Part shown: positions 2,881 to 22,563 of the stretch, in pieces
How the letters are laid out: each line of letters begins with the position of its first letter
Position numbering within the stretch: the first letter of the stretch is position 1
IMG/VR virus record: IMGVR_UViG_3300029624_000095
Location: 1-23,986 of that record
Length of the DNA stretch: 23,986 bases
Source: a virus
Strand: one strand, 5' to 3'
The notes under the pieces: generated by a model
The model's database searches: none
Told to the model about the DNA's origin: nothing
The model's input: only the letters and a program-made list of their open reading frames with translations
Program-made: the position numbers and the translations under genes

Positions 2881-3090
2881 CTACACATCAAAGCCCGGTG
2901 GGTACATTCCTTTTACATCCTCCGCAAATAGCATTCCGACGTCTGCGTCGTCGTCTTGAACCATTTCAATGACTTCGCCTTTGTCTGGATTTGCTATTTT
3001 GGGGAACTTCTCAATTCTCGCTGCCTCTTCTTCGCTAAAAGCATAGTCTCCAGCAATCAGCGCGTCCATTAGCTCTTTGTCTGTTCTCAT
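2881..3090 (-). CDS. Small acidic protein of unknown function
   Basis: A 69-residue acidic protein. It starts with M-R-T-D-K-E-L-M-D-A-L, has a Glu-rich helix (F-S-E-E-E-A-A-R-I-E), an acidic D-D-D-A-D run and a C-terminal P-P-G-F-D-V. The ATG overlaps the stop of the upstream kinase gene (ATGA), and the helicase starts two bases after its own stop, so it sits in a coupled kinase/small protein/helicase operon. There are no cysteines, membrane segment or recognisable domain. A role as an adaptor or antidote for the neighbouring zeta-like kinase would fit the position, but nothing in the sequence shows it. Confidence 0.8.
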   Translation of the reverse strand: MRTDKELMDALIAGDYAFSEEEAARIEKFPKIANPDKGEVIEMVQDDDADVGMLFAEDVKGMYPPGFDV

Positions 3091-4133
3091 TTTCCTACCT
3101 TCCTTTTCATTCTTTTGTTCAGATTGTTATACATTGCAGAGTCACCTATAGTAACGTCGCCCGAATCCGTTTTCTGGACAATCATTTTCGGCGGCTGTCC
3201 AAACGGGACATTCGTATTGAATACCGCGTATTCATCCACTTTTTCAGCCACGGTAGCAAATGAATTAGGGATTGTTGGAAACGCGCCCGACAGGACATTT
3301 AGAGGCACATACCGCCCTGTCCGCTCGGCGCGTTTCTTAGCCCGGCCTATTGCAACTTTAGCGTCAATGTCGGCCATGTAAAGTTTTACCTTGTAACCTT
3401 GCTCTTCCAACTTATCCAGACTTTTCAAATAGGAACCTGGGTCTTTGCCGGTGCCATCAATTATGAGATTCTTTCGCTGCTCTATTGCCTTCGCCCGCGC
3501 CCGCTTTACCAGCATGGAGCTTTCTTCATGGACCATTGCAGCAGAACCTTTGTAATTATTTTTCACGCCTACCCGGTATTCTGGAATGCGCTCTTTTACC
3601 GCGTCCGCGTCCGCAATTACAAACTGCGATTTATCTACTCCCAGAGCCCGAACCATGCTGGATTTTCCCGATGCCGGGCCGCCCATCATAAACACAGCTA
3701 CCGGCTGCTGACCTTCTGGAACAGGTGGGACTTTGTTCAGAATTTCATTGACTATTTTCTGGTGCAGTGCAGCCCGCTCTGGCTTAAATACTCCGTCTTC
3801 CTGTTTGTGTGCATCCAGAGTAGATTTGGGCATCCCTTCCATTTTGGTTTTCCATGTACCGCGAAACGGTAGCAAAGTCCGCAACGGCTGCCCGGACATA
3901 ATGGATGCGTATTCGATTTGAATTAGTCCCTGCACATAAGATTCAGATTTCAGCTTTGTATCTGGGGCCACCCATCGAGTAGACCAGTAAGACGTCCCGT
4001 CTTTACGCTGCACCTTGACTTTCTTTGGTACTTTCGCCACGGCTGCTTTTATCAAGCTGCCCTTGAAAGGAATAACTGTGTAGTAAACTAACATTGTATT
4101 GACTTCAGCTCTGTCTTTGTAATTGCTCTGCAA
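3087..4133 (-). CDS. Zeta-toxin-like P-loop kinase
   Basis: A P-loop kinase of the zeta-toxin family. It has Walker A G-G-P-A-S-G-K-S at 151-158, then I-A-D-A-D-A-V-K (173-180), a V-H-E-E-S-S segment and a D-G-T-G strand end, as in zeta toxins, which phosphorylate UDP-N-acetylglucosamine; other members of the fold modify other small molecules or RNA. The N-terminal about 130 residues are not toxin-like and contain the module G-T-S-x5-W-V-A-P (46-57) also seen in nearby enzymes. No epsilon-type antitoxin is recognisable next door; the following gene encodes a small acidic protein. The start is uncertain: the first ATG overlaps a plus-strand ORF, and M14 (ATG at 4094) would avoid that overlap; neither has a strong ribosome site. 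Family assignment is firm, substrate unknown. Confidence 0.88.
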   Translation of the reverse strand: MQSNYKDRAEVNTMLVYYTVIPFKGSLIKAAVAKVPKKVKVQRKDGTSYWSTRWVAPDTKLKSESYVQGLIQIEYASIMSGQPLRTLLPFRGTWKTKMEGMPKSTLDAHKQEDGVFKPERAALHQKIVNEILNKVPPVPEGQQPVAVFMMGGPASGKSSMVRALGVDKSQFVIADADAVKERIPEYRVGVKNNYKGSAAMVHEESSMLVKRARAKAIEQRKNLIIDGTGKDPGSYLKSLDKLEEQGYKVKLYMADIDAKVAIGRAKKRAERTGRYVPLNVLSGAFPTIPNSFATVAEKVDEYAVFNTNVPFGQPPKMIVQKTDSGDVTIGDSAMYNNLNKRMKRKVGK

Positions 4134-4134
4134 T

Positions 4135-4431
4135 ATGATCTCAGATAGCGAGCTTCTAAATTCTCAGTGCATACAATCCCGCGACCGTTTGCAACAACTA
4201 ATTCAATCCGCATTTCTGTCTGGCCAGATAGAACAGGTCAGAGACCGCAAGTCTGGAGCCAGAGCGTTTTCCATTCGAGTCGATCCAGATAACATTGATC
4301 CCGATGAACTGGAAGCGAAACTGAAGCAAATCAAACATGCCGCGCAAGAATACCGGAGCCTACGCGCCCGCGAAAAGAAAGTGCTGGATCAGGTAGAAAA
4401 GGCCCGCGTCATTCGTGACAGTCTTTATTGA
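4135..4431 (+). CDS. Plus-strand coiled-coil small protein
   Basis: This is one of only two plausible plus-strand genes, filling about 275 bases that contain no minus-strand frame. The product (98 residues from this ATG; 102 if the ATG at 4123 is used) is mostly helical. A Gln/Arg-rich first half (D-R-L-Q-Q-L-I-Q) is followed by a segment F-S-I-R-V-D-P-D-N-I-D-P-D-E-L-E and a charged C-terminal coiled coil (L-R-A-R-E-K-K-V-L-D-Q-V-E). It starts divergently from the zeta-like kinase and runs tail-to-tail into the RecU-like gene with a 23-nt overlap. No ribosome site is visible at either ATG, so the start and even expression are uncertain. I recognise no family. It could be a moron-like insertion or a regulator of its divergent neighbour. 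Confidence 0.6.
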   Translation: MISDSELLNSQCIQSRDRLQQLIQSAFLSGQIEQVRDRKSGARAFSIRVDPDNIDPDELEAKLKQIKHAAQEYRSLRAREKKVLDQVEKARVIRDSLY

Positions 4432-4930
4432 TCCAGTGCATGAGCCTATCAAGCGGCCAATACATTCCTTCTCGAATATGCTTCACTCTCTGCATTACAA
4501 ACATAGCGTCGGCCTTTAGCTGATCTATCGGCACCGACTTCCGGTTCATTCCCAGCCAACCCGCGACCGCTTCCGGGGCCAGCACAGCCACAAATTTGTC
4601 AGTGCTGTTCTGAACCTTCACGATAAAGAAGGCCCGCGCCCCGGCCCGCGCCCACTTCTTTAGATTGTCTACCTGGCCGTCGCGTGTATCACTCCCCCAA
4701 CGGATCTTGGAAAGTGGGAACGCCTGCGTAGACGCATGATACTTGGCCTCGAAACAATAAAGCTGGCCCTGCGTCATCCAGAAAGCATCGAATGGCTTTT
4801 CAGATATTGAATGAAATCCGTCTCTGGTACCGGGGCTGTCGGCAATCTTGTACCATTGCGATTGCGGATCTACCAGCAATGCAGATTTCCTTAACTCAGT
4901 TAAGAACTGCTGTTCTTTCGCCGCTGCCAT
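4409..4930 (-). CDS. RecU-like Holliday-junction resolvase (PD-(D/E)XK nuclease)
   Basis: This 173-residue protein matches the layout of RecU-type junction resolvases, which cut four-way DNA junctions. Visible features are an N-terminal helix (K-E-Q-Q-F-L-T-E-L), S-P-G-T-R-D-G-F, a nuclease core with P-F-D-A-F-W (D48), C-F-E-A-K (E61, K63), and then Q-x-x-x-L-K-K-W-A-R-A-G-A-R-A-F-F-I-V (86-104), the usual helix and strand after the active site. Phages use such enzymes to resolve recombination intermediates before packaging. Its start lies 35 nt inside the 3' end of the metallopeptidase gene, and its 3' end overlaps the plus-strand gene. The C-terminal 60 residues are less typical. The nuclease fold is clear, the exact substrate inferred. 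Confidence 0.82.
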   Translation of the reverse strand: MAAAKEQQFLTELRKSALLVDPQSQWYKIADSPGTRDGFHSISEKPFDAFWMTQGQLYCFEAKYHASTQAFPLSKIRWGSDTRDGQVDNLKKWARAGARAFFIVKVQNSTDKFVAVLAPEAVAGWLGMNRKSVPIDQLKADAMFVMQRVKHIREGMYWPLDRLMHWINKDCHE

Positions 4931-7725: not shown

Positions 7726-8144
7726 GGAACTCCTATCCATCGAATTGTATCACCCTTGGACGGGTCGATTGCAAACAATGCACCGCTATCTTTCTGAATC
7801 ACATAGATGACATTTCGATAGGAATACTTTAGCCACTCTTCAGAGCCCGCGTCAATCTCTTCTGGAGCATCGGAAGCGGTGCCGCCGTAGCCTTTCCAGA
7901 GTAATCTGTGCTGCTGCAATGAATTAGCCAGCTTTGCAAATGTCGTCGGCCCCAGATACAGATAGCCCTGGATCTTGCACCGTTGGCGTGTAAACTGATT
8001 AGCATTTACCGCGCCAACTGCTTCCGCTAATGACTGTGGATATTCTTTTCGAGAAATTCTTAGAAACGCAATTCTTGTTTCGTTCGGATGAACTATAGGA
8101 TGTGTGATAGAAAGCATGAAGCACAAAAGAACATAGGCCAGCAT
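7722..8144 (-). CDS. Exported small protein of unknown function
   Basis: A 140-residue protein with an N-terminal hydrophobic stretch (M-L-A-Y-V-L-L-C-F-M-L-S-I), probably a signal peptide or membrane anchor, followed by a mature domain without a recognised motif. The C-terminal part has Y-R-N-V-I-Y-V-I-Q-K-D-S-G-A-L-F-A-I-D. The ATG lies only 9 bases after a strong terminator and has no Shine-Dalgarno sequence, so the start or the mode of expression is uncertain; read-through or antitermination may be needed. It overlaps the MuF-like gene by ATGA, marking it as the first gene of that operon. Function unknown. Confidence 0.78.
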   Translation of the reverse strand: MLAYVLLCFMLSITHPIVHPNETRIAFLRISRKEYPQSLAEAVGAVNANQFTRQRCKIQGYLYLGPTTFAKLANSLQQHRLLWKGYGGTASDAPEEIDAGSEEWLKYSYRNVIYVIQKDSGALFAIDPSKGDTIRWIGVP

Positions 8145-8153
8145 TCAGGCAAC

Positions 8154-8178
8154 AAAAAAGCCGGGCTATTTGCCCGGC
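8154..8178 (-). terminator. Intrinsic terminator with stop codon in its loop
   Basis: Perfect 7-bp GCCGGGC/GCCCGGC stem with a 5-nt loop, followed by six T on the minus strand. The TAG stop of the upstream gene (8168-8166) lies at the loop/stem edge, so the gene's last codons are part of the hairpin. Confidence 0.92.
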
Positions 8179-8759
8179 TTGTAAATCTTGAGAAACAAGC
8201 GAAGTGTATTCAGCTTAACTTCACCCAAATTTTTTGCCTTCTTTAACCACTTCGGAACTTCCGCAATGATTAGTCGGCTTGTCTCGCCTGGACGATCAGG
8301 CACGTCCATAGTCATGTCGCGCTTGATCGTCATTTGAGACTTTGGCATCCACTCCTGGTGGACTCCGGCATCCGGGTAAATCAAATGCAACTGGAATGCT
8401 TTCTCGGTCTCCCGCATAACAACTCCCATTGCCAGAACCTTTTTCGGTGCAGGCTTTTTAGCCTTTCCCAACTTTGCTTGCTCCACTAACTCCCCGCCGT
8501 CCGGCATAGGCACCGATTCAAAATCAAATCCCATTCTGGAAAGCTGGTTCCGATACTTGCGAATCATCTTGTAAACGACTCGAAGTTCGTTCACATTCCA
8601 GAATGGCTGCCCGTTCAGCCGTCTGGCTGGCTGGGCATCCGTCCCACTAAAACCGGCTTCATCGTCGGTCTTCGCACCATCACAAACGCTTAGAAGCATT
8701 TGCATGGCCGTCCTTAGCTTGGATTCGCATTCGGTTACTGCTGTAGTGGTTGTCTGCAT
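8166..8759 (-). CDS. Hypothetical phage protein with W-M-P-K-S-Q motif
   Basis: A 197-residue protein with no domain I can name firmly. A helical N-terminus is followed by F-W-N-V-N-E-L-R-V-V-Y-K-M-I-R-K-Y-R-N-Q-L, a Lys/Ala-rich linker, then a beta segment A-F-Q-L-H-L-I-Y-P-D-A-G-V-H-Q-E-W-M-P-K-S-Q. The W-(M/L)-P-K-S-Q ending resembles a motif seen in small phage/plasmid nucleic-acid-related proteins, but I treat that as a weak hint. It has its own promoter-like element (8787-8822), AGGAG ten bases before the ATG, and ends inside the loop of its terminator. It is the last unit of the small-gene chain. Confidence 0.82.
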   Translation of the reverse strand: MQTTTTAVTECESKLRTAMQMLLSVCDGAKTDDEAGFSGTDAQPARRLNGQPFWNVNELRVVYKMIRKYRNQLSRMGFDFESVPMPDGGELVEQAKLGKAKKPAPKKVLAMGVVMRETEKAFQLHLIYPDAGVHQEWMPKSQMTIKRDMTMDVPDRPGETSRLIIAEVPKWLKKAKNLGEVKLNTLRLFLKIYKPGK

Positions 8760-8786
8760 ATTGTCTTGTCTCCTTTTCCCTTTTGG

Positions 8787-8822
8787 TTATGTATTTGATT
8801 GATCGATTGTGTGCATGGTTCA
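8787..8822 (-). promoter_or_regulatory. Repeated promoter-like element P1 (divergent copy)
   Basis: Minus-strand TGAACCATGC, 16 bp, AAATACATAA. It matches the family consensus TGAGTCATGC-N16-GAATAYATAG with a few changes, sits between a terminator and the ribosome site of the 197-residue gene, and is the most diverged of the eight copies. Confidence 0.7.
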
Positions 8823-8827
8823 GATAC

Positions 8828-8853
8828 AAAAAAGCCAGACGTTTCCGCCCGGC
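8828..8853 (-). terminator. Intrinsic terminator
   Basis: Eight-base stem GCCGGGCG/CGTCTGGC (two G-T pairs) with a GAAA loop, then six T on the minus strand, six bases after the stop codon of the 75-residue gene. Confidence 0.9.
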
Positions 8854-8859
8854 TTCCGA

Positions 8860-9087
8860 TCATCGAATTCGATGCTGGTACCACTTCCCGACTCGAAAAG
8901 TGTAGTAGTCATTAGCCTGCTGAACACAGACCATTTCATAAGCAGTCAATGCAAGCGAAGCTCCCGCTCGCGTATCCACAAAAAAGATACGATTGCCATT
9001 GCTTGGAACAGCAACTTCGATACGTTTTGAACTCAGCTTCAACTCTGCCATTAACTTGCGACCTTGTCTTACTTGTTCCATAGTCAT
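8860..9087 (-). CDS. Small hypothetical protein
   Basis: A 75-residue basic protein starting M-T-M-E-Q-V-R-Q-G-R-K. The ATG at 9087 is chosen because GGGAGG lies nine bases upstream; longer versions would cross the preceding hairpin. The C-terminal half has N-R-I-F-F-V-D-T-R-A-G-A-S-L and ends Y-Y-T-F-R-V-G-K-W-Y-Q-H-R-I-R, which suggests a compact beta-rich fold. There is no promoter element directly upstream, only a hairpin with a weak T-run, so it is probably transcribed by partial read-through from the DUF6908-like gene. No family recognised. Confidence 0.78.
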   Translation of the reverse strand: MTMEQVRQGRKLMAELKLSSKRIEVAVPSNGNRIFFVDTRAGASLALTAYEMVCVQQANDYYTFRVGKWYQHRIR

Positions 9088-9115
9088 AGTTTGTTTCCTC
9101 CCTTGCACCCAGAAA

Positions 9116-9141
9116 GCCCGGACCCCTTTCGGAGCCCAGGC
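9116..9141 (-). terminator. Hairpin with weak T-run (partial terminator)
   Basis: Eleven-pair stem with a GAAA loop, including G-T pairs, followed by only TTTCT. It lies between two genes and has no promoter element after it, so it may attenuate rather than stop transcription into the 75-residue gene. Confidence 0.6.
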
Positions 9142-9147
9142 TGGAAG

Positions 9148-9594
9148 TTATGCGGCTGCGCCGCGAATGGAAGCCTTGCTTGCCGCTTTGACAAAGCCTT
9201 GCTCTCCAATGTTTTTGTTCCAAATTCTGGGGAACTCTTTGTCTCGCAGAACGTAGCCTTCTGGAGCTTGCTGCTCATAACCGACGTAGTCGTTGCGAAA
9301 GTAGATCGGCGACCACTTGGACTTAATGACTCGCTTGTATTCCAGTTCACCGCGCACTTTCTGAAGTCGCTGCTGTCGCTGGAAAATGAAAACCATTTCT
9401 GGGTCGCGCATTGCATCGCCGTTCTGGTAGCCATAGTGGGCAACGCTGATCTCGATGCCGTAGCTTTTCTTGCCTACCACTTCGATTGTCAGAGGCATCC
9501 AGCCTTCATTTTCAACTTTGATATACTGGCCGGACTCAGCAAAATTCTCGACTGATCCGAACAGTTTTTCAATGATCTTTTCTACGTTTTTCAT
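9148..9594 (-). CDS. DUF6908-like protein
   Basis: A 148-residue protein with the look of the DUF6908 group found in phages and plasmids: W-M-P-L-T-I-E-V (32-39), an I-S-V-A-H-Y-G-Y-Q-N-G-D-A-M-R-D-P-E-M-V-F segment and a later P-I-Y-F-R-N-D-Y-V-G-Y-E-Q. No catalytic function is known to me for this group. It has its own promoter-like element (9620-9655) and AAGGAG seven bases before the ATG, and probably shares its transcript with the 75-residue gene downstream. The C-terminal A-S-K-A-S-I-R-G-A-A-A is Ala-rich. The family call is from memory of the motif pattern and moderate. Confidence 0.75.
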   Translation of the reverse strand: MKNVEKIIEKLFGSVENFAESGQYIKVENEGWMPLTIEVVGKKSYGIEISVAHYGYQNGDAMRDPEMVFIFQRQQRLQKVRGELEYKRVIKSKWSPIYFRNDYVGYEQQAPEGYVLRDKEFPRIWNKNIGEQGFVKAASKASIRGAAA

Positions 9595-9619
9595 GTCCTA
9601 ACTCCTTTTCCCTTTGTAT

Positions 9620-9655
9620 CTATGTATTCGATTCAGGCCGGTTTTGCATGATTCA
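9620..9655 (-). promoter_or_regulatory. Repeated promoter-like element P2
   Basis: Minus-strand TGAATCATGC, 16 bp, GAATACATAG, 25 bp before the ATG of the DUF6908-like gene. The 16-bp gap ends TGAATC, as in copies P4 and P5. Confidence 0.82.
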
Positions 9656-9658
9656 GGT

Positions 9659-9688
9659 AAAAAAAATAGCCGGACGTTTCCGCCCGGC
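9659..9688 (-). terminator. Intrinsic terminator
   Basis: Eight-pair GCCGGGCG/CGTCCGGC stem (one G-T pair) with GAAA loop, then TATTTTTTTT on the minus strand, directly after the 143-residue gene and abutting element P2. Confidence 0.92.
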
Positions 9689-9696
9689 CATCGTCA

Positions 9697-10128
9697 TTAC
9701 GCCGCCGTCTGCTGGTTGCGCTTCTGTTCTACCCGCATCCTGGCCGCTGCCAGTTCACGCTGCCAGTTCAAAAATAAAACGGAGCCCCTGGAGCTGTCTA
9801 CTTCTGTCAGCCTCAGTTCTGCTTTGCTCAGAGTCTCCCGAAGCACTTCAATGACTTCTTTCAGATACTCCGCTTCCTGCTCTGCCTGTTCGGCTGGAAC
9901 AAGCCCAGCAATGTCCTGTCGCCGCTTTTCTGTAATGGTTGCGACGTCATAACCATGCTCTGTCTTGCGAAAATGGTCTCGCAAGTCACGCTCCAGACTG
10001 TTCATAATCAGACTCACAGCCCGCTCACTCTCTGTCTGCTTTGCCGCTTTCTTACCTGCCATGTGAATCCGCTTGAAAAGCGAATGCACTTCCTCGACAA
10101 AGTAGCGGCCCGCAATTTTCACATTCAT
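9697..10128 (-). CDS. Helical hypothetical protein
   Basis: A 143-residue, mostly helical, charged protein. The N-terminal part is basic (M-N-V-K-I-A-G-R-Y, K-R-I-H-M-A-G-K-K-A-A-K-Q). The middle runs R-D-L-R-D-H-F-R-K-T-E-H-G-Y-D, and the second half is a Glu-rich likely coiled coil (A-E-Q-A-E-Q-E-A-E-Y-L-K-E-V). Its ATG overlaps the stop of the RadC-like gene (ATGA) and its GGGAGG is supplied by the last codons of that gene (K-G-G-K-R), so the two are translationally coupled. A role with the RadC-like protein is plausible from position only. No family recognised. Confidence 0.82.
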   Translation of the reverse strand: MNVKIAGRYFVEEVHSLFKRIHMAGKKAAKQTESERAVSLIMNSLERDLRDHFRKTEHGYDVATITEKRRQDIAGLVPAEQAEQEAEYLKEVIEVLRETLSKAELRLTEVDSSRGSVLFLNWQRELAAARMRVEQKRNQQTAA

Positions 10129-10643
10129 CGTTTTCCTCCCTTTCGATTCATGTAATCAATGACACTTCGCACTGTTGGCGTACCGCACTCGGAACGGCCC
10201 ACAACTAAATGGTCCATAAGCAGGACACCGACCAGTTCAAACGTTCCGAGTAACTTGCGAGTCACACGCACGTCTTGTTCGGACGGCTCTGGATCGCCGG
10301 ACAAATGATTGTGTGCCAGAATAATTTTCGTCGCTGCGTTGTGCTTGAGTAGCTTTTCCAGAATCATTCTCGGATTCATCGAAACGCCCGTTTTGTAGCC
10401 CCGCGCCAGTTCACAAAAACTAATAACTCTGTTTGCTTCGTCCAGAAACATTGCCACAGCCACTTCCTGCCTTTCTTGCAAGGCTCTGGGCCATCGGTCA
10501 AATAGCTCCCGCGCCGCTTCCTCAGTATTGGTAACTGGAAGACTGGCCATGCGCTTGCCGTGCCGACTCCGCATATAGGCAATAAATGCTTTTTGATCGT
10601 CTGCACTGAGACTATCCCATTCTACTTTCGGTTTCTTTTTCAC
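10125..10643 (-). CDS. radC-like: RadC/JAB-domain protein
   Basis: This 172-residue protein has the RadC-type MPN/JAB metalloprotease fold: a Q-E-V-A-V-A-M-F-L-D strand with the likely catalytic Glu, a K-I-I-L-A-H-N-H-L-S-G-D-P-E-P-S-E-Q-D zinc motif (H111, H113, D124) and L-L-M-D-H-L-V-V-G after it. The HNHxSG variant has Leu in place of the usual Pro. RadC-like proteins are common on phages and mobile elements, with roles in recombination or in countering host defence proposed but not settled. The GTG at 10643 is preferred because GGGAGG lies six bases upstream. It is separated from the preceding gene by a perfect terminator and has no promoter element of its own. Confidence 0.9.
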   Translation of the reverse strand: MKKKPKVEWDSLSADDQKAFIAYMRSRHGKRMASLPVTNTEEAARELFDRWPRALQERQEVAVAMFLDEANRVISFCELARGYKTGVSMNPRMILEKLLKHNAATKIILAHNHLSGDPEPSEQDVRVTRKLLGTFELVGVLLMDHLVVGRSECGTPTVRSVIDYMNRKGGKR

Positions 10644-10660
10644 TGCTTTCCTCCCTGAAT

Positions 10661-10689
10661 AAAACAAAAGGCCAGTCCGAAGACTGGCC
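10661..10689 (-). terminator. Intrinsic terminator with UUCG loop
   Basis: Perfect 8-bp GGCCAGTC/GACTGGCC stem with a TTCG loop followed by TTTTGTTTT, between the 66-residue gene and the RadC-like gene. No promoter element follows, so the RadC pair needs read-through or an unrecognised promoter. Confidence 0.93.
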
Positions 10690-10706
10690 CCTGCGCTTGC
10701 AAATGG

Positions 10707-10907
10707 TCAGGCCATATACAGTTTGTAAGCTGCCGCCACGGAAATTCCGCGTTGCATTGCCAGGTGCATAATTTCACCGGCAACGGTCTGAACTGAAACT
10801 CCCTTAGCTTGCGCTTTAGCAAAAAGCTGTCGGGGATGGCCTTTTATCTGCAAACTGTTGAATTGTCGAACCGCTTCAGTGCGGCTCATTTTGACTTGTG
10901 TCTTCAT
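10707..10907 (-). CDS. Small basic hypothetical protein
   Basis: A 66-residue basic, helical protein (M-K-T-Q-V-K-M-S-R-T-E-A-V-R-Q-F-N). The start at 10907 is set by GGGAGG seven bases upstream; the longer upstream frame would translate the promoter element itself. The segments F-A-K-A-Q-A-K-G-V-S-V-Q-T-V and Q-R-G-I-S-V-A-A-A-Y-K-L-Y look like two short helix-turn-helix-like repeats, so DNA binding is possible. It is the first gene after element P3. No family recognised. Confidence 0.8.
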   Translation of the reverse strand: MKTQVKMSRTEAVRQFNSLQIKGHPRQLFAKAQAKGVSVQTVAGEIMHLAMQRGISVAAAYKLYMA

Positions 10908-10924
10908 ACGCCACCTCCCGGCAT

Positions 10925-10960
10925 ATATACATTCAATCCGGGAAGTAACTGCATGACTCA
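10925..10960 (-). promoter_or_regulatory. Repeated promoter-like element P3
   Basis: Minus-strand TGAGTCATGC, 16 bp, GAATGTATAT. It directly follows a terminator T-run and precedes the 66-residue gene's GGGAGG by six bases. Confidence 0.82.
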
Positions 10961-10965
10961 GATAC

Positions 10966-10990
10966 AAAAAAGCCAGCCCGAAGGCTGGCT
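10966..10990 (-). terminator. Intrinsic terminator with UUCG loop
   Basis: Perfect 8-bp AGCCAGCC/GGCTGGCT stem with TTCG loop and a T-run on the minus strand, five bases after the stop of the 164-residue gene. T's also follow on the plus strand, so it could work both ways. Confidence 0.92.
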
Positions 10991-10995
10991 TTTAC

Positions 10996-11490
10996 TTACA
11001 ACGCCCAGGGAGCGTCTTCATAACCAGGCATTGTCTGGATCATCGCTTTGCGAATGACGCGCATTAACTTGGCAACTTCGGTTTCACCATAGCCGGTCAA
11101 ATCACTGGCTTGATACTCAAAACCGTCAATCAATTTGAGCACATTCATTTGAGTCACTGAAGCGACTACTTCTGAAGCAGGTCGCTTTTCCTCAATGATC
11201 GCTTTCTTGGCTTCAGCTTTTGAAAGGCCCCCTAACGGGATATTGTCAAAAAAGCGGAATTTGAAAGCAGCAACGCGCTCTTGAATTTCTTCCTCAGTAG
11301 TGTCGCCGTAACGTTCAGCGTAGGCCCGAAGGTTGACTTCTAACATTGCTTTGCCAGCAGCGTCCAACGCAGACTCAATTTTAGCCAACGTATGTCCGTT
11401 CCAGCGAACAGTGCCATAGCGGAAGTCATAGCGTTTTACTCCGCTCAGGATGAAATTTATGTGATTATCAGAAACAACGAAACAACTCAT
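10996..11490 (-). CDS. Conserved-looking hypothetical phage protein
   Basis: A 164-residue protein beginning M-S-C-F-V-V-S-D-N-H-I-N-F-I-L-S-G, a start pattern I associate with a widespread but uncharacterised phage/plasmid protein type, followed by N-L-R-A-Y-A-E-R-Y-G-D. A middle segment K-F-R-F-F-D-N-I-P-L-G-G-L-S-K-A and a helical C-terminus (Y-G-E-T-E-V-A-K-L-M-R-V-I-R-K-A-M) follow. The ATG has GGGAGG eight bases upstream and its own element P4. No enzymatic motif is visible, so no function is assigned. Confidence 0.85.
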   Translation of the reverse strand: MSCFVVSDNHINFILSGVKRYDFRYGTVRWNGHTLAKIESALDAAGKAMLEVNLRAYAERYGDTTEEEIQERVAAFKFRFFDNIPLGGLSKAEAKKAIIEEKRPASEVVASVTQMNVLKLIDGFEYQASDLTGYGETEVAKLMRVIRKAMIQTMPGYEDAPWAL

Positions 11491-11510
11491 AGTGGTTTCC
11501 TCCCTTGTAT

Positions 11511-11546
11511 ATATCTATTCGATTCACTGCTAAATTGCATGACTCA
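11511..11546 (-). promoter_or_regulatory. Repeated promoter-like element P4
   Basis: Minus-strand TGAGTCATGC, 16 bp (ending TGAATC), GAATAGATAT, followed by ATACAAGGGAGG and the 164-residue gene. Confidence 0.83.
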
Positions 11547-11551
11547 AATGC

Positions 11552-11581
11552 AAAAAAAAAGCCAGAGCAAACGCCCCCGGC
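11552..11581 (-). terminator. Intrinsic terminator
   Basis: GC-rich hairpin (GCCGGGGGC against GCTCTGGC, with G-T pairs) followed by nine T on the minus strand, just after the 84-residue gene. Confidence 0.88.
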
Positions 11582-11587
11582 TTTGAT

Positions 11588-11842
11588 TCAATCAATGTTT
11601 TGAATGCGAAGCGACTCTTCACAGGACATTGAACCAGCTTCCAGCTTACCATTTGTCGAACCAGAATAGAAACAAGAATAACCCTGCCTGTGCAGTGATC
11701 TCATTGCTTTTCTGGTCGCTACCCGGTTTTCATAGCCAGACTGCCAGATATAAACCTTGCGTGTGCTTGGCTTTAGATCCTCCGCTGGAACTCCAGCTTT
11801 CAGCAGCTCATTCATAATCTTTCTTGAAGTAGGTTTTTTCAT
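11588..11842 (-). CDS. Small basic hypothetical protein
   Basis: An 84-residue protein with a basic N-terminus (M-K-K-P-T-S-R-K) and the segment S-T-R-K-V-Y-I-W-Q-S-G-Y-E-N-R-V-A-T-R-K-A-M-R-S-L-H-R-Q-G-Y, which reads as a strand plus a basic helix and could bind nucleic acid. The C-terminal part is more acidic and has two Cys. GGGAGG lies six bases before the ATG, and element P5 drives it as a one-gene unit ended by its own terminator. No family recognised. Confidence 0.83.
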   Translation of the reverse strand: MKKPTSRKIMNELLKAGVPAEDLKPSTRKVYIWQSGYENRVATRKAMRSLHRQGYSCFYSGSTNGKLEAGSMSCEESLRIQNID

Positions 11843-11860
11843 GTCTTTCCTCCCTTGTAC

Positions 11861-11896
11861 CTATACATTTGATTCAGCCTGCATTCGCATGACTCA
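11861..11896 (-). promoter_or_regulatory. Repeated promoter-like element P5
   Basis: Minus-strand TGAGTCATGC, 16 bp (ending TGAATC), AAATGTATAG, then GTACAAGGGAGG and the 84-residue gene. Confidence 0.83.
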
Positions 11897-11900
11897 GGAC

Positions 11901-11929
11901 AAAAAAATAGCCGGACATTGCTGCCCGGC
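11901..11929 (-). terminator. Intrinsic terminator
   Basis: Seven-pair GCCGGGC/GTCCGGC stem with AGCAAT loop, then TATTTTTTT on the minus strand. Stem and loop nearly match the terminator at 13714-13740, suggesting duplication of the cassette. Confidence 0.92.
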
Positions 11930-11992
11930 CTACGTTGCACTCATGGCCCGACTGTTGCGGACTCTCTATCTTTGTTCAGGGATGGAAGGAAC

Positions 11993-12331
11993 TCACAGCC
12001 ACGGGGCCGCTCGATTGATAAGTTCAAATTCAGCCTTGTTTACTGTAGCCAGTGTTCCTTCCAGTGTTGCCAGTAGCATGTAATCCTGGCCGCTACGAAA
12101 CTTGCCGTCTGGGCGAAACGATCCCGGTAGCATGTCCGTTCGGATATTGTAACCGTCGATCATTTCAATCCCTTGCTCTATTTCGCCTTTGACTTCTTCC
12201 CACGCATGTCGCTTGGCATCGGCCAGCAACCCTGGAGTAAACAGGTCAGCTTCCGGTATATCATAACGTTGCATACGTGCTTCCACATTGGAGCGAAGTC
12301 CTTTCAATTCTCTAATTGTCAGCGTTTTCAT
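11993..12331 (-). CDS. Hypothetical protein
   Basis: A 112-residue protein starting M-K-T-L-T-I-R-E-L-K-G-L-R. The ATG at 12331 is preferred over the one at 12337 because AGAGGGG lies seven bases before it and only one base before the other. The N-terminal half is helical and charged (R-H-A-W-E-E-V-K-G-E-I-E-Q-G-I-E-M-I-D-G-Y); the second half has Y-M-L-L-A-T-L-E-G-T-L-A-T-V-N-K-A-E-F. It has no promoter element and follows a strong terminator, so it is probably expressed by read-through from element P6. About 60 bases between its stop and the next terminator are unassigned. No family recognised. Confidence 0.8.
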   Translation of the reverse strand: MKTLTIRELKGLRSNVEARMQRYDIPEADLFTPGLLADAKRHAWEEVKGEIEQGIEMIDGYNIRTDMLPGSFRPDGKFRSGQDYMLLATLEGTLATVNKAEFELINRAAPWL

Positions 12332-12352
12332 TTTCATACCCCTCTACCCTAC

Positions 12353-12376
12353 AAAAAAGCCGGGCTATTGCCCGGC
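12353..12376 (-). terminator. Intrinsic terminator with stop codon in its loop
   Basis: Perfect 7-bp GCCGGGC/GCCCGGC stem with a 4-nt loop and six T. The TAG stop of the upstream gene (12367-12365) is in the loop and stem edge, as at 8154-8178. Confidence 0.93.
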
Positions 12377-12736
12377 CTCCCTCAGAACGTCTGCATATTT
12401 GTCTACATGGCCGCAAGGATTGTCCCATCGGTCCACGCTCATATTCCAGCCATCCTCAGTCATTAGGTAGGGCCGGGCTTCTCCCCTGGGTCCGCCGCAT
12501 ACCGGACATACCTTGCGAACTGCAACCAGCTTGGAGCTGGTCAGATACCCGGCTGAATTTCGCACTGGAACTTTGACTTTCATGTAGTCGCCAGCTTTCC
12601 TGGCCGCTGCCAGTAGTTCCGAAAAATCAGTGCGAAGGCTCTTGCCTTGACTGTCTTTCATTTCAACCACATAGCCGTCGATGAAGTCCGCAATGTCCTT
12701 CAAAAGTTCCCTTAGTTCAATTTCATTCTCACGCAT
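12365..12736 (-). CDS. Small putative zinc-binding protein
   Basis: A 123-residue protein starting M-R-E-N-E-I-E-L-R-E-L-L, with an acidic helical N-terminus. A later zinc-ribbon-like half has V-C-P-V-C-G-G-P-R-G-E-A-R-P (C-x2-C) and then N-P-C-G-H-V-D-K-Y, giving four possible metal ligands (three Cys and one His). This suggests a small nucleic-acid or protein-binding zinc module. The ATG at 12736 is fixed by GGGAGG seven bases upstream and element P6 before that. Its last codons (A-G-Q-stop) form half of its own terminator. No family recognised. Confidence 0.83.
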   Translation of the reverse strand: MRENEIELRELLKDIADFIDGYVVEMKDSQGKSLRTDFSELLAAARKAGDYMKVKVPVRNSAGYLTSSKLVAVRKVCPVCGGPRGEARPYLMTEDGWNMSVDRWDNPCGHVDKYADVLREAGQ

Positions 12737-12754
12737 TGGTTTCCTCCCTTGCAC

Positions 12755-12790
12755 CTATATATTCAGTCTGGAGCAGATCGGCATGACTCA
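12755..12790 (-). promoter_or_regulatory. Repeated promoter-like element P6
   Basis: Minus-strand TGAGTCATGC, 16 bp, GAATATATAG, then GTGCAAGGGAGG and the 123-residue gene. Confidence 0.83.
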
Positions 12791-12796
12791 GAGCAT

Positions 12797-12822
12797 AAAA
12801 AAGCGGAGCCCGTAGGCCCCGC
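12797..12822 (-). terminator. Intrinsic terminator with UACG loop
   Basis: Eight-pair GCGGGGCC/GGCTCCGC stem (one G-T pair) with a TACG tetraloop and six T on the minus strand, just after the 67-residue gene. Confidence 0.92.
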
Positions 12823-12828
12823 CTGTGT

Positions 12829-13032
12829 TCACGGCATGTCGTGAAACTTACTGTGGTACTCGACCGCTTGATTGCGAATCTCATCCGCAATCAGCAATGC
12901 TTCTTTTGCAATCACTTCTGCATCTGCCCGGTCGATGGTTTCCAGTATGGTTTCCAGTTCAGCAGCCGCTTGCTGGGCAAGTCCTGCCGCAATGTTTGAT
13001 GCCATCAGGCACAGTAACTCAGTTTCGTTCAT
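12829..13032 (-). CDS. Small helical acidic protein
   Basis: A 67-residue all-helical protein: N-terminal M-A-S-N-I-A-A-G-L-A-Q-Q-A-A-A-E-L-E-T-I, then I-D-R-A-D-A-E-V-I-A-K-E-A-L-L-I-A-D-E-I-R and a short tail. The ATG at 13032 is preferred over 13038 because GGAG is seven bases upstream of it. It is separated from the gene before it by a hairpin with a broken T-run (TTTTCTT) and has no promoter element, so it probably shares the P7 transcript. Ala/Glu-rich amphipathic helices suggest a coiled-coil or bundle. No family recognised. Confidence 0.78.
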   Translation of the reverse strand: MNETELLCLMASNIAAGLAQQAAAELETILETIDRADAEVIAKEALLIADEIRNQAVEYHSKFHDMP

Positions 13033-13051
13033 TTTCATTCTCCTGTACACA

Positions 13052-13075
13052 AGAAAAGCCAGCCCGAAGGCTGGC
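13052..13075 (-). terminator. Hairpin with interrupted T-run
   Basis: Perfect 7-bp GCCAGCC/GGCTGGC stem with TTCG loop, followed by TTTTCTT. It probably gives partial termination between two genes of one unit. Confidence 0.75.
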
Positions 13076-13081
13076 CGATTG

Positions 13082-13321
13082 TTATTGAACGCAGGCTGCT
13101 TTCTTGATTTTGAATCCACGCTCTGCGTAGTCTTCGTCTTCTTTCCAGTTCTGAATGATTTCATCCAGCGTTTCACCGATTCCATTGAATGCCAGATACT
13201 TCGGCATAGGTCCGCCAGCCTGGCGCATTGCGTTGCATTTGCAGCTTGCGCTATGCACTGTTGCATTCATGGTCCTGGTAGAAACCAGAACCTTGTAATC
13301 AGGATTTTCTTCATAGCTCAT
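13082..13321 (-). CDS. Small hypothetical protein
   Basis: A 79-residue protein starting M-S-Y-E-E-N-P-D-Y-K-V-L-V-S-T-R-T-M-N. It has V-H-S-A-S-C-K-C-N-A-M-R (a His and two Cys that could bind metal with a third Cys near the C-terminus) and an acidic helix L-D-E-I-I-Q-N-W-K-E-D-E-D-Y-A-E-R. The ATG has GGGAGG seven bases upstream and is driven by element P7. It is the first protein gene after the candidate RNA. No family recognised. Confidence 0.82.
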   Translation of the reverse strand: MSYEENPDYKVLVSTRTMNATVHSASCKCNAMRQAGGPMPKYLAFNGIGETLDEIIQNWKEDEDYAERGFKIKKAACVQ

Positions 13322-13340
13322 AGGTTTCCTCCCTTGCTGA

Positions 13341-13376
13341 CTATGTATTCAATCTGCCTTGAGTCATGCAGACTCA
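13341..13376 (-). promoter_or_regulatory. Repeated promoter-like element P7 (variant with inverted upstream box)
   Basis: Minus-strand TGAGTCTGCA, 16 bp, GAATACATAG. The spacing is kept, but the upstream box is rearranged so that the normal TGAGTCATGC now reads on the opposite strand as part of a palindrome. Confidence 0.78.
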
Positions 13377-13380
13377 AGGC
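13356..13380. repeat. 25-bp inverted repeat within element P7
   Basis: Perfect 10-bp arms GCCTTGAGTC and GACTCAAGGC around ATGCA. It replaces the single upstream box of the other promoter copies and could be a double-sided protein-binding site. Confidence 0.9.
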
Positions 13381-13382
13381 AC

Positions 13383-13410
13383 AAAAAAAAGCGGGGCCGA
13401 TTGACCCCGC
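13383..13410 (-). terminator. Strong intrinsic terminator of the candidate RNA
   Basis: Perfect 6-bp GCGGGG/CCCCGC stem with further possible pairing inside its 8-base loop, followed by eight T on the minus strand. Confidence 0.93.
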
Positions 13411-13663
13411 TTCCTTCGTTGACCGCTTGGCAGTCTGCCCGGTACGTAACCCGGACTCCGGTGGAAACAATCTCAGTCCGCCCACTAGACTGCCAGCACA
13501 TAGGCTGGAACAAGGCACATGCGGATTCCGTAGAATCGGCGAACAGTCGGCCATTGCTGGCCCGTTGTGGTCTTGATTGCGGTAAATGCTCCAGCTTGCC
13601 GGTTGCCCGGACTCACCGTCTTTGCGGTGCGAAACTGGACGCGCCGAATGCTCGACCGTGCCC
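13383..13663 (-). ncRNA. Candidate structured non-coding RNA
   Basis: The stretch between element P8 and a perfect terminator has no ribosome site at the usual place and no convincing gene. Stable hairpins follow one another on the minus strand: a 5-bp stem (13635-13639 with 13590-13594) encloses two hairpins, 13614-13629 and 13599-13610 (CCGG stem, GCAA loop), forming a three-way junction. Then come 13549-13562 (GGCC stem), 13524-13537 (GATTC stem closed by a C-TACG-G loop) and 13493-13508 (CCAGC stem). A 9-bp perfect long-range stem pairs 13487-13495 with 13428-13436. The RNA would be about 280 nt, with its 5' end estimated from the promoter-like box. A 43-codon frame from a GTG at 13616 to 13485 exists but has a poor ribosome site. 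No match to tmRNA, RNase P or tRNA is evident to me. Confidence 0.62.
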
Positions 13664-13671
13664 CGTTACAT

Positions 13672-13707
13672 ATATAGATTCGATCCGACGTTACTTTGCA
13701 TGACTCA
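13672..13707 (-). promoter_or_regulatory. Repeated promoter-like element P8
   Basis: Minus-strand TGAGTCATGC, 16 bp, GAATCTATAT. It is the only copy not followed by a GGGAGG ribosome site, and it begins the candidate RNA. Confidence 0.82.
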
Positions 13708-13713
13708 GAGCAC

Positions 13714-13740
13714 AAAAAAATCCGGACATTGCTGCCCGGA
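13714..13740 (-). terminator. Intrinsic terminator after the lysis genes
   Basis: Seven-pair TCCGGGC/GTCCGGA stem (one G-T pair) with AGCAAT loop, then seven T on the minus strand. About 55 bases downstream of the holin candidate and directly before element P8. Confidence 0.92.
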
Positions 13741-13796
13741 TTCAGGGGTCATCTTGTTTGATAGGAAACATGGTCGCCTGTGGCGAAAAACACAGA

Positions 13797-14792: not shown

Positions 14793-15521
14793 CTAAATCA
14801 ATTTTGCTGCCTGCTCTGCCAGAGCTCTGGCCATAGCCGGGGGGATTGCCTCCGCTATGCTGTGCTTCTTTTCTGCTGCACTGCGTCCGGCATACAACCA
14901 ATTTATTCCGCTGCTCTGTTCCCAGACGTCCAGCCTGTTCAAGCCCACCGGATTGTTCCCGCCGTGGCCTGCCAGTGTCACGTAGTCGCCCGCCCGCACG
15001 GAGACTTCACCGCCTTCCAATCCTGGCCGCCCTACTCTGGGCATAGACTGCAATGGCAAATTAGATTCAAACCGGCGCATCTTTATGACACCTGGAATGT
15101 ATCGCTTACCATTTCGCTCCAGAATACCTTCTGGAGAGTACCGCGGAATCAGTCCGACTTGTGGGCCAGTCAATGTGATTGATTTGTCTTTCAGTAGCGG
15201 AGCCTGGACCACGTTCTCTATTATGTATGGCTTGCCGGTCTTGAGTATTGCGTTTCGCGTCCGGGCTACCAGATCTGCCCGCTTCCTGTCTTTCCATCGG
15301 GCCGCCGCGAATGAAAAAGCCTGGCATGGTGGACTGGCCCAGATCAGATCAAAGCCAGTCGCCAGTTCTTTCAGCATCTTGATTGCGTCACCCTGCATGA
15401 AGTTCTTGGGCGCAACGTAGTCTATTTGTCTTTCGATGTCTACGCCGACCACTTCCCAGCCCGCCTCCAAAAACCCCGCCGATACACCGCCGACACCACA
15501 ATATAAATCAAGTACTTTCAT
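14793..15521 (-). CDS. C5-cytosine DNA methyltransferase
   Basis: A compact 242-residue C5-cytosine methyltransferase. It has the SAM-binding D-L-Y-C-G-V-G-G (5-12), V-V-G-V-D-I (24-29), catalytic S-P-P-C-Q (63-67, Cys66 attacks C6 of cytosine), I-E-N-V (101-104) and a C-terminal motif-X-like H-S-I-A-E-A-I-P-P-A-M-A. The target-recognition part is short, which fits small phage methylases. No restriction enzyme is next to it, so it likely marks phage DNA against host restriction. The ATG overlaps the stop of the Acb2-like gene by ATGA and its own stop overlaps the lysin ribosome site, giving one operon. Confidence 0.92.
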   Translation of the reverse strand: MKVLDLYCGVGGVSAGFLEAGWEVVGVDIERQIDYVAPKNFMQGDAIKMLKELATGFDLIWASPPCQAFSFAAARWKDRKRADLVARTRNAILKTGKPYIIENVVQAPLLKDKSITLTGPQVGLIPRYSPEGILERNGKRYIPGVIKMRRFESNLPLQSMPRVGRPGLEGGEVSVRAGDYVTLAGHGGNNPVGLNRLDVWEQSSGINWLYAGRSAAEKKHSIAEAIPPAMARALAEQAAKLI

Positions 15522-15745
15522 TCATTTCGTGCTATTGCAGCATTGGCCCACATTGAAGCGTCTTCAATAGAAGTCAGAGCAATAGACAATTCTCTTGATT
15601 CCGGACACTCCTCAGCAATAACCTCAGCAAAACTTTTCGCCGCGTTGCGAATTCTTACATAACGATCCGCTTGTCCTTCTTTTGGAGGATGATACTTGAA
15701 ATTATTCTCCAACCGTTCCCGCATTTCTTTTGATATTCTATCCAT
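15518..15745 (-). CDS. acb2-like: Acb2-like cyclic nucleotide sponge (predicted anti-CBASS/anti-Thoeris)
   Basis: A 75-residue protein that matches the Acb2 pattern from memory: F-K-Y-H-P-P-K-E-G-Q (16-25), R-Y-V-R-I-R-N-A-A-K-S-F-A-E-V-I, C-P-E-S-R-E-L-S-I-A-L-T and the ending S-M-W-A-N-A-A-I-A-R-N (64-74). Known Acb2 proteins bind and sequester the cyclic di- or trinucleotide signals made by CBASS, and related sponges act on Thoeris signals, so this one is predicted to protect the phage from abortive defence. The start at 15745 (ATG nine bases after GGAG) is preferred over ATGs at 15751 and 15760, which lack proper spacing. It lies between an exported Cys protein and the methyltransferase, with an ATGA overlap to the latter. 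Confidence 0.85.
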   Translation of the reverse strand: MDRISKEMRERLENNFKYHPPKEGQADRYVRIRNAAKSFAEVIAEECPESRELSIALTSIEDASMWANAAIARNE

Positions 15746-15764
15746 TTTCATTCGCTCCATTTTT

Positions 15765-15986
15765 TTATTCGCTGTCAGCAAACTGAAATTCATGTCGCTC
15801 GCATGAAAAGAACTTTCCGTAACTATTCTGTCCCACTCTGACACACATATCGCGGTCTTCATAGGTAGCCATGACCTTGCCTTCGCAGACGCCTGCTTTT
15901 TCGTAACAGTCCTGCACTGACTCGACGCCCGGCTCCATTGCAGCCCAGACAATCAGCACCCAGAAAAATTCAGTTAGTATTCTCAT
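15765..15986 (-). CDS. Small exported cysteine-containing protein
   Basis: A 73-residue protein with a hydrophobic N-terminus (M-R-I-L-T-E-F-F-W-V-L-I-V-W-A-A-M), a likely signal peptide or anchor, then a short acidic mature part with four Cys spaced for two disulfides (D-C-Y-E, G-V-C-E, D-M-C-V, F-S-C-E). It would act outside the cytoplasm. GGAG lies eight bases before the ATG. The ATG overlaps, as ATGA, an in-frame TGA located downstream of the portal's three TAG codons. Possible roles such as superinfection exclusion or a lysis accessory are guesses. No family recognised. Confidence 0.75.
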   Translation of the reverse strand: MRILTEFFWVLIVWAAMEPGVESVQDCYEKAGVCEGKVMATYEDRDMCVRVGQNSYGKFFSCERHEFQFADSE

Positions 15987-19159: not shown

Positions 19160-19172
19160 AATTTACGTCAAC
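19160..19172 (-). promoter_or_regulatory. 13-bp GTTGACGYAAATT motif, copy 1
   Basis: Minus-strand GTTGACGTAAATT in the 40-base gap after the terminase gene. TTGACG resembles a -35 box, but the best -10 would put the start of transcription at the start codon, so the role is uncertain. Confidence 0.4.
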
Positions 19173-22550: not shown

Positions 22551-22563
22551 AATTTGCGTCAAC
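22551..22563 (-). promoter_or_regulatory. 13-bp GTTGACGYAAATT motif, copy 2
   Basis: Minus-strand GTTGACGCAAATT between the divergent 107-residue and SGNH genes. It differs by one base from the copy at 19160-19172 and likewise lies shortly before a minus-strand gene. No -10 box at normal spacing is visible. Confidence 0.4.

Follow-up and report, generated by a model that had tools for sequence, protein, structure and literature searches.

A repeated two-part, promoter-like element heading terminator-bounded units of small genes in a virus record

We have found eight copies of a two-part sequence element in a 5-kb block of small genes of the virus record IMGVR_UViG_3300029624_000095 (IMG/VR), each located directly behind a terminator and at the head of a new unit. 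Judging from the sequence, this element is probably a non-standard promoter. Its promoter-like character is well supported by the fixed geometry, by the conservation of the boxes in unrelated surroundings, by the position between terminator and ribosome site and by the one copy that precedes a candidate RNA instead of a gene; that it acts as a promoter, where transcription starts and which factor reads it are what we infer beyond this.

The window that we analyzed is the whole record, 23,986 bases classed among the linear virus records, and is probably a fragment of an incomplete genome. Terminase, portal and head-morphogenesis genes are present, and no major capsid, tail or polymerase genes were recognised in the 23,986 bases. 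Several other genes could be assigned. A gene at 15518-15952 (minus strand), which overlaps a cytosine DNA methyltransferase gene at the start of the latter, has in its C-terminal half a match to the Acb2/Tad1 hairpin domain (Pfam PF24729, E 3.8e-22; phrog_1454) and by this similarity probably codes for an anti-CBASS signal sponge. Also on the minus strand are a RecU-like Holliday junction resolvase domain (4409-4930; Pfam PF03838, E 9e-7) and a Zeta-toxin-like kinase domain (3087-4133; Pfam PF06414, E 1e-32), the latter with homologues in 19 of the distantly related phage loci retrieved. A ParB-like protein with a ParB-N domain is encoded at 19-735.

The eight copies and their two boxes

An initial annotation had placed minus-strand copies at 8787, 9620, 10925, 11511, 11861, 12755, 13341 and 13672, and every one of these coordinates proved right. 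It had also proposed a position matrix built from the eight. Scanned over the whole window, this matrix returned the eight copies and no others, each between a terminator and a new unit:

13672-13707, minus strand, element copy 1, before the non-coding RNA candidate (41.3 bits)
13341-13376, minus strand, element copy 2, first box degenerate (30.1 bits)
12755-12790, minus strand, element copy 3, exact match to the string of the initial annotation (37.1 bits)
11861-11896, minus strand, element copy 4 (40.6 bits)
11511-11546, minus strand, element copy 5 (40.9 bits)
10925-10960, minus strand, element copy 6 (39.8 bits)
9620-9655, minus strand, element copy 7 (41.6 bits)
8787-8822, minus strand, element copy 8 (32.8 bits)

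The copies scored 30-42 bits and the next best position in the window 12.4 bits, while 50 Markov-1 random sequences of the same length gave a mean maximum of 10.9 and a largest value of 17.9 bits. In leave-one-out scoring each copy ranked above all the non-copy positions. A search allowing up to three mismatches per box found seven of the eight and missed the one at 13341, which was recovered by the matrix and by the leave-one-out scoring. The 12.4-bit runner-up is a palindromic echo of this same copy on the plus strand.

From the column table of the aligned copies we refined the consensus to TTTTT-N6-TGAGTCATGC-N11-YRATYRAATNNATAK. The string given originally holds as a consensus but not as a fixed string, since only the copy at 12755 matches it exactly. 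Similarly, the gap between its two parts, described as 16 bp of variable bases, is indeed 16 bp in all eight copies, but the last 5-6 of these bases are conserved (YRRATY) and only about 11 are free. The element contains besides a direct repeat, TGARTC/YRRATY, 20 bp apart, which could be bound by a single regulator at both points from one face of the DNA. In the copy at 13341 the first box reads TGAGTCTGCA, with TGAGTC kept in the right place, and sits in a 10-bp inverted repeat, GCCTTGAGTC-TGCAT-GACTCAAGGC. The opposite strand of this copy carries a perfect TGAGTCATGC at 13360-13369 (plus strand), one helical turn away.

Mean pairwise identity between copies was 83% in the first box and 74% in the second, versus 31% in the 11 intervening bases and 31% and 23% in the flanks, which argues that selection holds the boxes and that they are not the product of a recent duplication of the whole stretch. 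With spacers diverged to near random, recent tandem duplication was rejected as the sole cause of the repeats. The terminator-plus-element stretches at 9611 and 11852 are, at the same time, 79% identical over 84 nt, and such blocks may have been copied in the past, their free bases drifting since then and the boxes not. A sequence resembling the second box (ATTGATTACATG) before the gene at 10128 was not counted; it has no first box and falls within the coding sequence of the RadC-like gene.

Terminators, ribosome sites and the eight units

As had been claimed originally, each of the eight copies directly follows the T-run of a terminator, and a hairpin precedes the T-run. Ahead of the first box, all eight have five consecutive T at positions -11 to -7 relative to it, without any shift between copies. 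Of the hairpins, seven came out of the terminator scan; the eighth, at 13382-13410, is evident from the sequence and its fold:

13718-13743, minus strand, terminator before copy 1 (terminator scan)
13382-13410, minus strand, terminator of the RNA unit, before copy 2 (GCGGGGTCAATCGGCCCCGC then T8; sequence and fold)
12801-12824, minus strand, terminator before copy 3 (terminator scan)
11909-11930, minus strand, terminator before copy 4 (terminator scan)
11558-11584, minus strand, terminator before copy 5 (terminator scan)
10968-10993, minus strand, terminator before copy 6 (terminator scan)
9665-9692, minus strand, terminator before copy 7 (terminator scan)
8830-8857, minus strand, terminator before copy 8 (terminator scan)

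Behind the terminators near 8180, 10692, 12378 and 13076 comes a gene that has no element ahead of it. Non-coding gaps account for 26% of the region, and all eight copies fall within such gaps, on the coding strand. Every gene unit discussed is on the minus strand:

13383-13671, minus strand, unit 1, candidate structured non-coding RNA of about 290 nt including its own terminator
13082-13321, minus strand, unit 2, gene 1, 79 aa, no assigned function
12829-13032, minus strand, unit 2, gene 2, 67 aa
12365-12736, minus strand, unit 3, gene 1, 123 aa, phrog_9089 (a family without assigned function)
11993-12337, minus strand, unit 3, gene 2, 114 aa
11588-11842, minus strand, unit 4, 84 aa, no assigned function
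10996-11490, minus strand, unit 5, 164 aa, no assigned function
9697-10907, minus strand, unit 6 as a whole, three genes
10707-10907, minus strand, gene of unit 6, 66 aa
10125-10643, minus strand, gene of unit 6, RadC-like
9697-10128, minus strand, gene of unit 6, 143 aa
9148-9594, minus strand, unit 7, gene 1, 148 aa, DUF6908
8860-9087, minus strand, unit 7, gene 2, 75 aa
8166-8759, minus strand, unit 8, 197 aa, no assigned function

The strong ribosome site that had been reported just after seven of the eight copies was also found, of the GGGAGGA- or GGGAAAAGGAG-type and with the start codon 17-27 nt downstream of the element. Ribosome sites of this type occur without an element at 9094, where the stretch GGTGCAAGGGAGGAAAC recurs, and also at 10132 and 10647, so the element is a module separate from the ribosome site. 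Very strong ribosome sites (AAGGGAGGAAAC) are concentrated in 8100-13700 (minus strand) and are rare in the rest of the record, its structural genes included.

The remaining copy, at 13672, heads a different kind of unit. No ORF led by a ribosome site was found from this copy to the next terminator. The 252-nt stretch without the terminator folds at -0.394 kcal/mol per nt, within the top 1% of windows of the same size in the record, although its GC content is high as well (60%); against dinucleotide shuffles the z value of the candidate was -1.83 without the terminator and -3.72 with it. Rfam gave no match other than a sub-threshold, terminator-like one (E 0.28), and no convincing homologue appeared in the phage collection. 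From the predicted fold, it is plausible that 13383-13671 is a structured RNA. The presence of the element before a non-coding RNA candidate with its own terminator argues for a signal for transcription, not for translation.

Relatives and known repeated promoters

Peptide scans of viral and bacterial genomes with the terminase and portal revealed no close relative, and the identity to the nearest phages (SPO1-type and others) was only 26-31%. Profile scans provided 91 loci at about 26-31% portal identity and 11 loci with a DUF6908 gene. The best named phage matches of our DUF6908 gene (9148-9594) are the Leptospira phages LE3 and LE4 (37%); DUF6908 is also found on a Granulicella plasmid, at or adjoining an ArdC-like gene. 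The matrix detected no array of elements in the approximately 100 distant loci of the portal and DUF6908 sets, and a search for any repeated post-terminator motif among the portal and Leptospira phage loci recovered the window only. Motif scans over the whole viral collection, from which very near records may be missing, returned isolated single-copy matches in other contexts, which we judged to be due to chance. Nor was TGAGTCATGC found in any relevant phage paper among the matches listed, and we found no promoter that the element matches. Within the record, TTGACGYAAATT occurs in two exact copies before genes of the terminase/portal region (19160-19171 and 22551-22562, minus strand), possibly a different promoter class; when two mismatches are allowed its count is not beyond chance, and the exact copies are only two.

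Comparable layouts are known. The early region of phiC31 has arrays of phage-activated promoters adjoining terminators, before small early genes; the likeness is one of general layout, and phiC31 belongs to a different phage group. In SPO1 the host-takeover module combines clustered small genes, strong ribosome sites and many promoters, but the early promoters of SPO1 are ordinary sigma-A promoters, unlike our element, and the homology to SPO1 in terminase and portal is distant.

Phage sigma factors can use promoters with a single box, as gp36 of phiEco32, or with two, as gp47 of Salmonella phage 7-11 (PMC8948821). The late promoters of 7-11, GTAAtg-(16)-aCTA, read by the phage sigma SaPh711_gp47 (PMC8948821), resemble the element in being several copies of a phage-specific promoter with two boxes 16 bp apart. 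However, TGAGTCATGC is not GTAATG and RAATNNATA is not aCTA; the 7-11 promoters precede late genes across the genome, whereas the elements precede small genes in one 5-kb block, each behind a terminator; and 7-11 has a phage sigma gene, whereas none was recognised in the present fragment of an incomplete genome. The middle/late promoters of phiEco32, tAATGTAtA, are read by gp36 with starts 6-8 bp downstream (PMC8948821). This motif matches AATNNATA of the second box, exactly in the copies at 11861 and 10925; among the aligned copies AATGTATA is present in two of eight and AATNNATA in all eight, but a second conserved box is also there, unlike the single element of phiEco32, and the AAT..ATA likeness is, at the level of sequence, weak. 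The SAS/ESAS repeats of cluster K mycobacteriophages consist of one 13-bp block, GGGATAGGAGCCC, with 17-bp inverted repeats in about half of the cases (PMC3203893). Like the element, they are short, asymmetric and repeated, located directly ahead of many genes and for the most part oriented one way (PMC3203893); the element differs in its two boxes at fixed spacing, in the ribosome site outside it and in the terminator in register. The aligned copies do not contain GGGATAGGAGCCC, in agreement with the initial remark that the sequence differs from the start-associated repeats of actinophages.

What reads the element

On the pattern of the copies, we consider it fairly probable that the element is a bipartite promoter specific to the phage, and that the RNA polymerase reading it carries a specificity factor different from the usual housekeeping sigma. 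The factor would most likely be a phage-encoded sigma, or an activator replacing the -35 contact. Polymerase and factor would bind TGAGTCATGC at about -36 to -27, the position expected for sigma region 4 or an activator, the AT-rich box RATYRAATNNATA would be opened by the polymerase, and the RNA would start a few bases downstream of ATAK, in or just before the ribosome site. With a terminator directly ahead of each copy, the region would be cut into eight short insulated units, seven with one to three small, strongly translated genes and one with the structured RNA, all switched on together by one factor. Against this reading stand the copy at 13341, which lacks a good first box, and the occurrence of the motif in no other phage examined. 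The initial proposal of a promoter served by a dedicated factor thus stands as far as a promoter-like signal that is not ordinary sigma-70 is concerned; the dedicated activator, sigma or polymerase we infer, since the fragment holds no candidate for it (among the genes recognised in the 24 kb of the incomplete record there is none for a sigma factor, activator or RNA polymerase) and no relative with the motif turned up in the scans.

It is also conceivable, although unlikely, that a housekeeping or alternative sigma of the host with a preference unlike TTGACA/TATAAT reads the element, that no phage factor is required and that the units are early genes. SPO1, whose takeover regions contain many repeated early promoters of host type, is distantly related through its terminase and portal (26-28% identity). 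The spacing depends on the register. It had been argued that the upstream box, starting 29 bp before the -10 box, is too far away for a normal sigma-70 -35; this holds if TNNATA is the -10 box, but a start right after ATAK puts the first box at about -36 to -27, in the normal -35 zone, and the second over about -15 to -2. The boxes would then fall near -36 and -12, spaced as is normal for a sigma factor and with TYRAAT serving as a poor -10, but the -11 A of a normal -10 is missing in all copies. Besides, the sigma-70 consensus scan lists no promoter at any element, and the mean best -35/-10 match to TTGACA/TATAAT was 7.38/12 versus 7.35/12 in shuffles, not above the shuffle level. Rigid spacing and a first box of 10 bp, longer than usual in housekeeping promoters, also speak against a host sigma.

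A site for protein binding or recombination, for example for the ParB-like protein or at the boundary of gene cassettes, would account for the two-fold symmetry of TGAGTCA, for the recurrence of YRRATY 20 bp (two helical turns) after TGARTC and for the block copying suggested by the 84 nt shared at 79% identity between 9611 and 11852, and a protein with a ParB-N domain is encoded in the record. This is nevertheless quite improbable: the copies have a single orientation, always behind a terminator and just before the start of a gene or RNA, the AT-rich second box and the fixed spacer are promoter-shaped, and the terminator-walled units would otherwise have no promoter. The least probable of the readings is that a single-subunit, T7-like phage RNA polymerase recognises the second box (RATYRAATNNATAK, in which ATAK immediately precedes the start), the first box being the site of a separate regulator. 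The second box is 14 bp long and well conserved, and promoters of T7 type likewise end in TATA just before +1. Such polymerases, however, need neither a first box, which here is equally conserved, nor its rigid spacing; the bases next to the start are variable, the fragment has no recognised gene of this kind, and the terminase and portal have their relatives in myophage types that rely on the polymerase of the host. With its two boxes, the element is better suited to a holoenzyme of sigma type than to a single-subunit phage polymerase.

Repeated phage promoters are a known layout; what is new here is the sequence, the register with the terminator, the tight terminator-promoter-ribosome-site unit and the RNA unit. 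It is possible, and we put this forward tentatively, that the copies belong to a class of phage promoter not described before and served by a sigma or activator of its own. The compact unit of terminator, promoter and ribosome site would then allow the phage to gather insulated gene cassettes, among them one for a new structured phage RNA. If this is true, the consensus would be a tag for one co-regulated set of small phage proteins without assigned function and an RNA, and could serve as bait in the search for the factor by which the phage redirects the polymerase. The promoter would provide a channel apart from the housekeeping sigma promoters, and the phage would have a modular route to add small genes without read-through into their neighbours.
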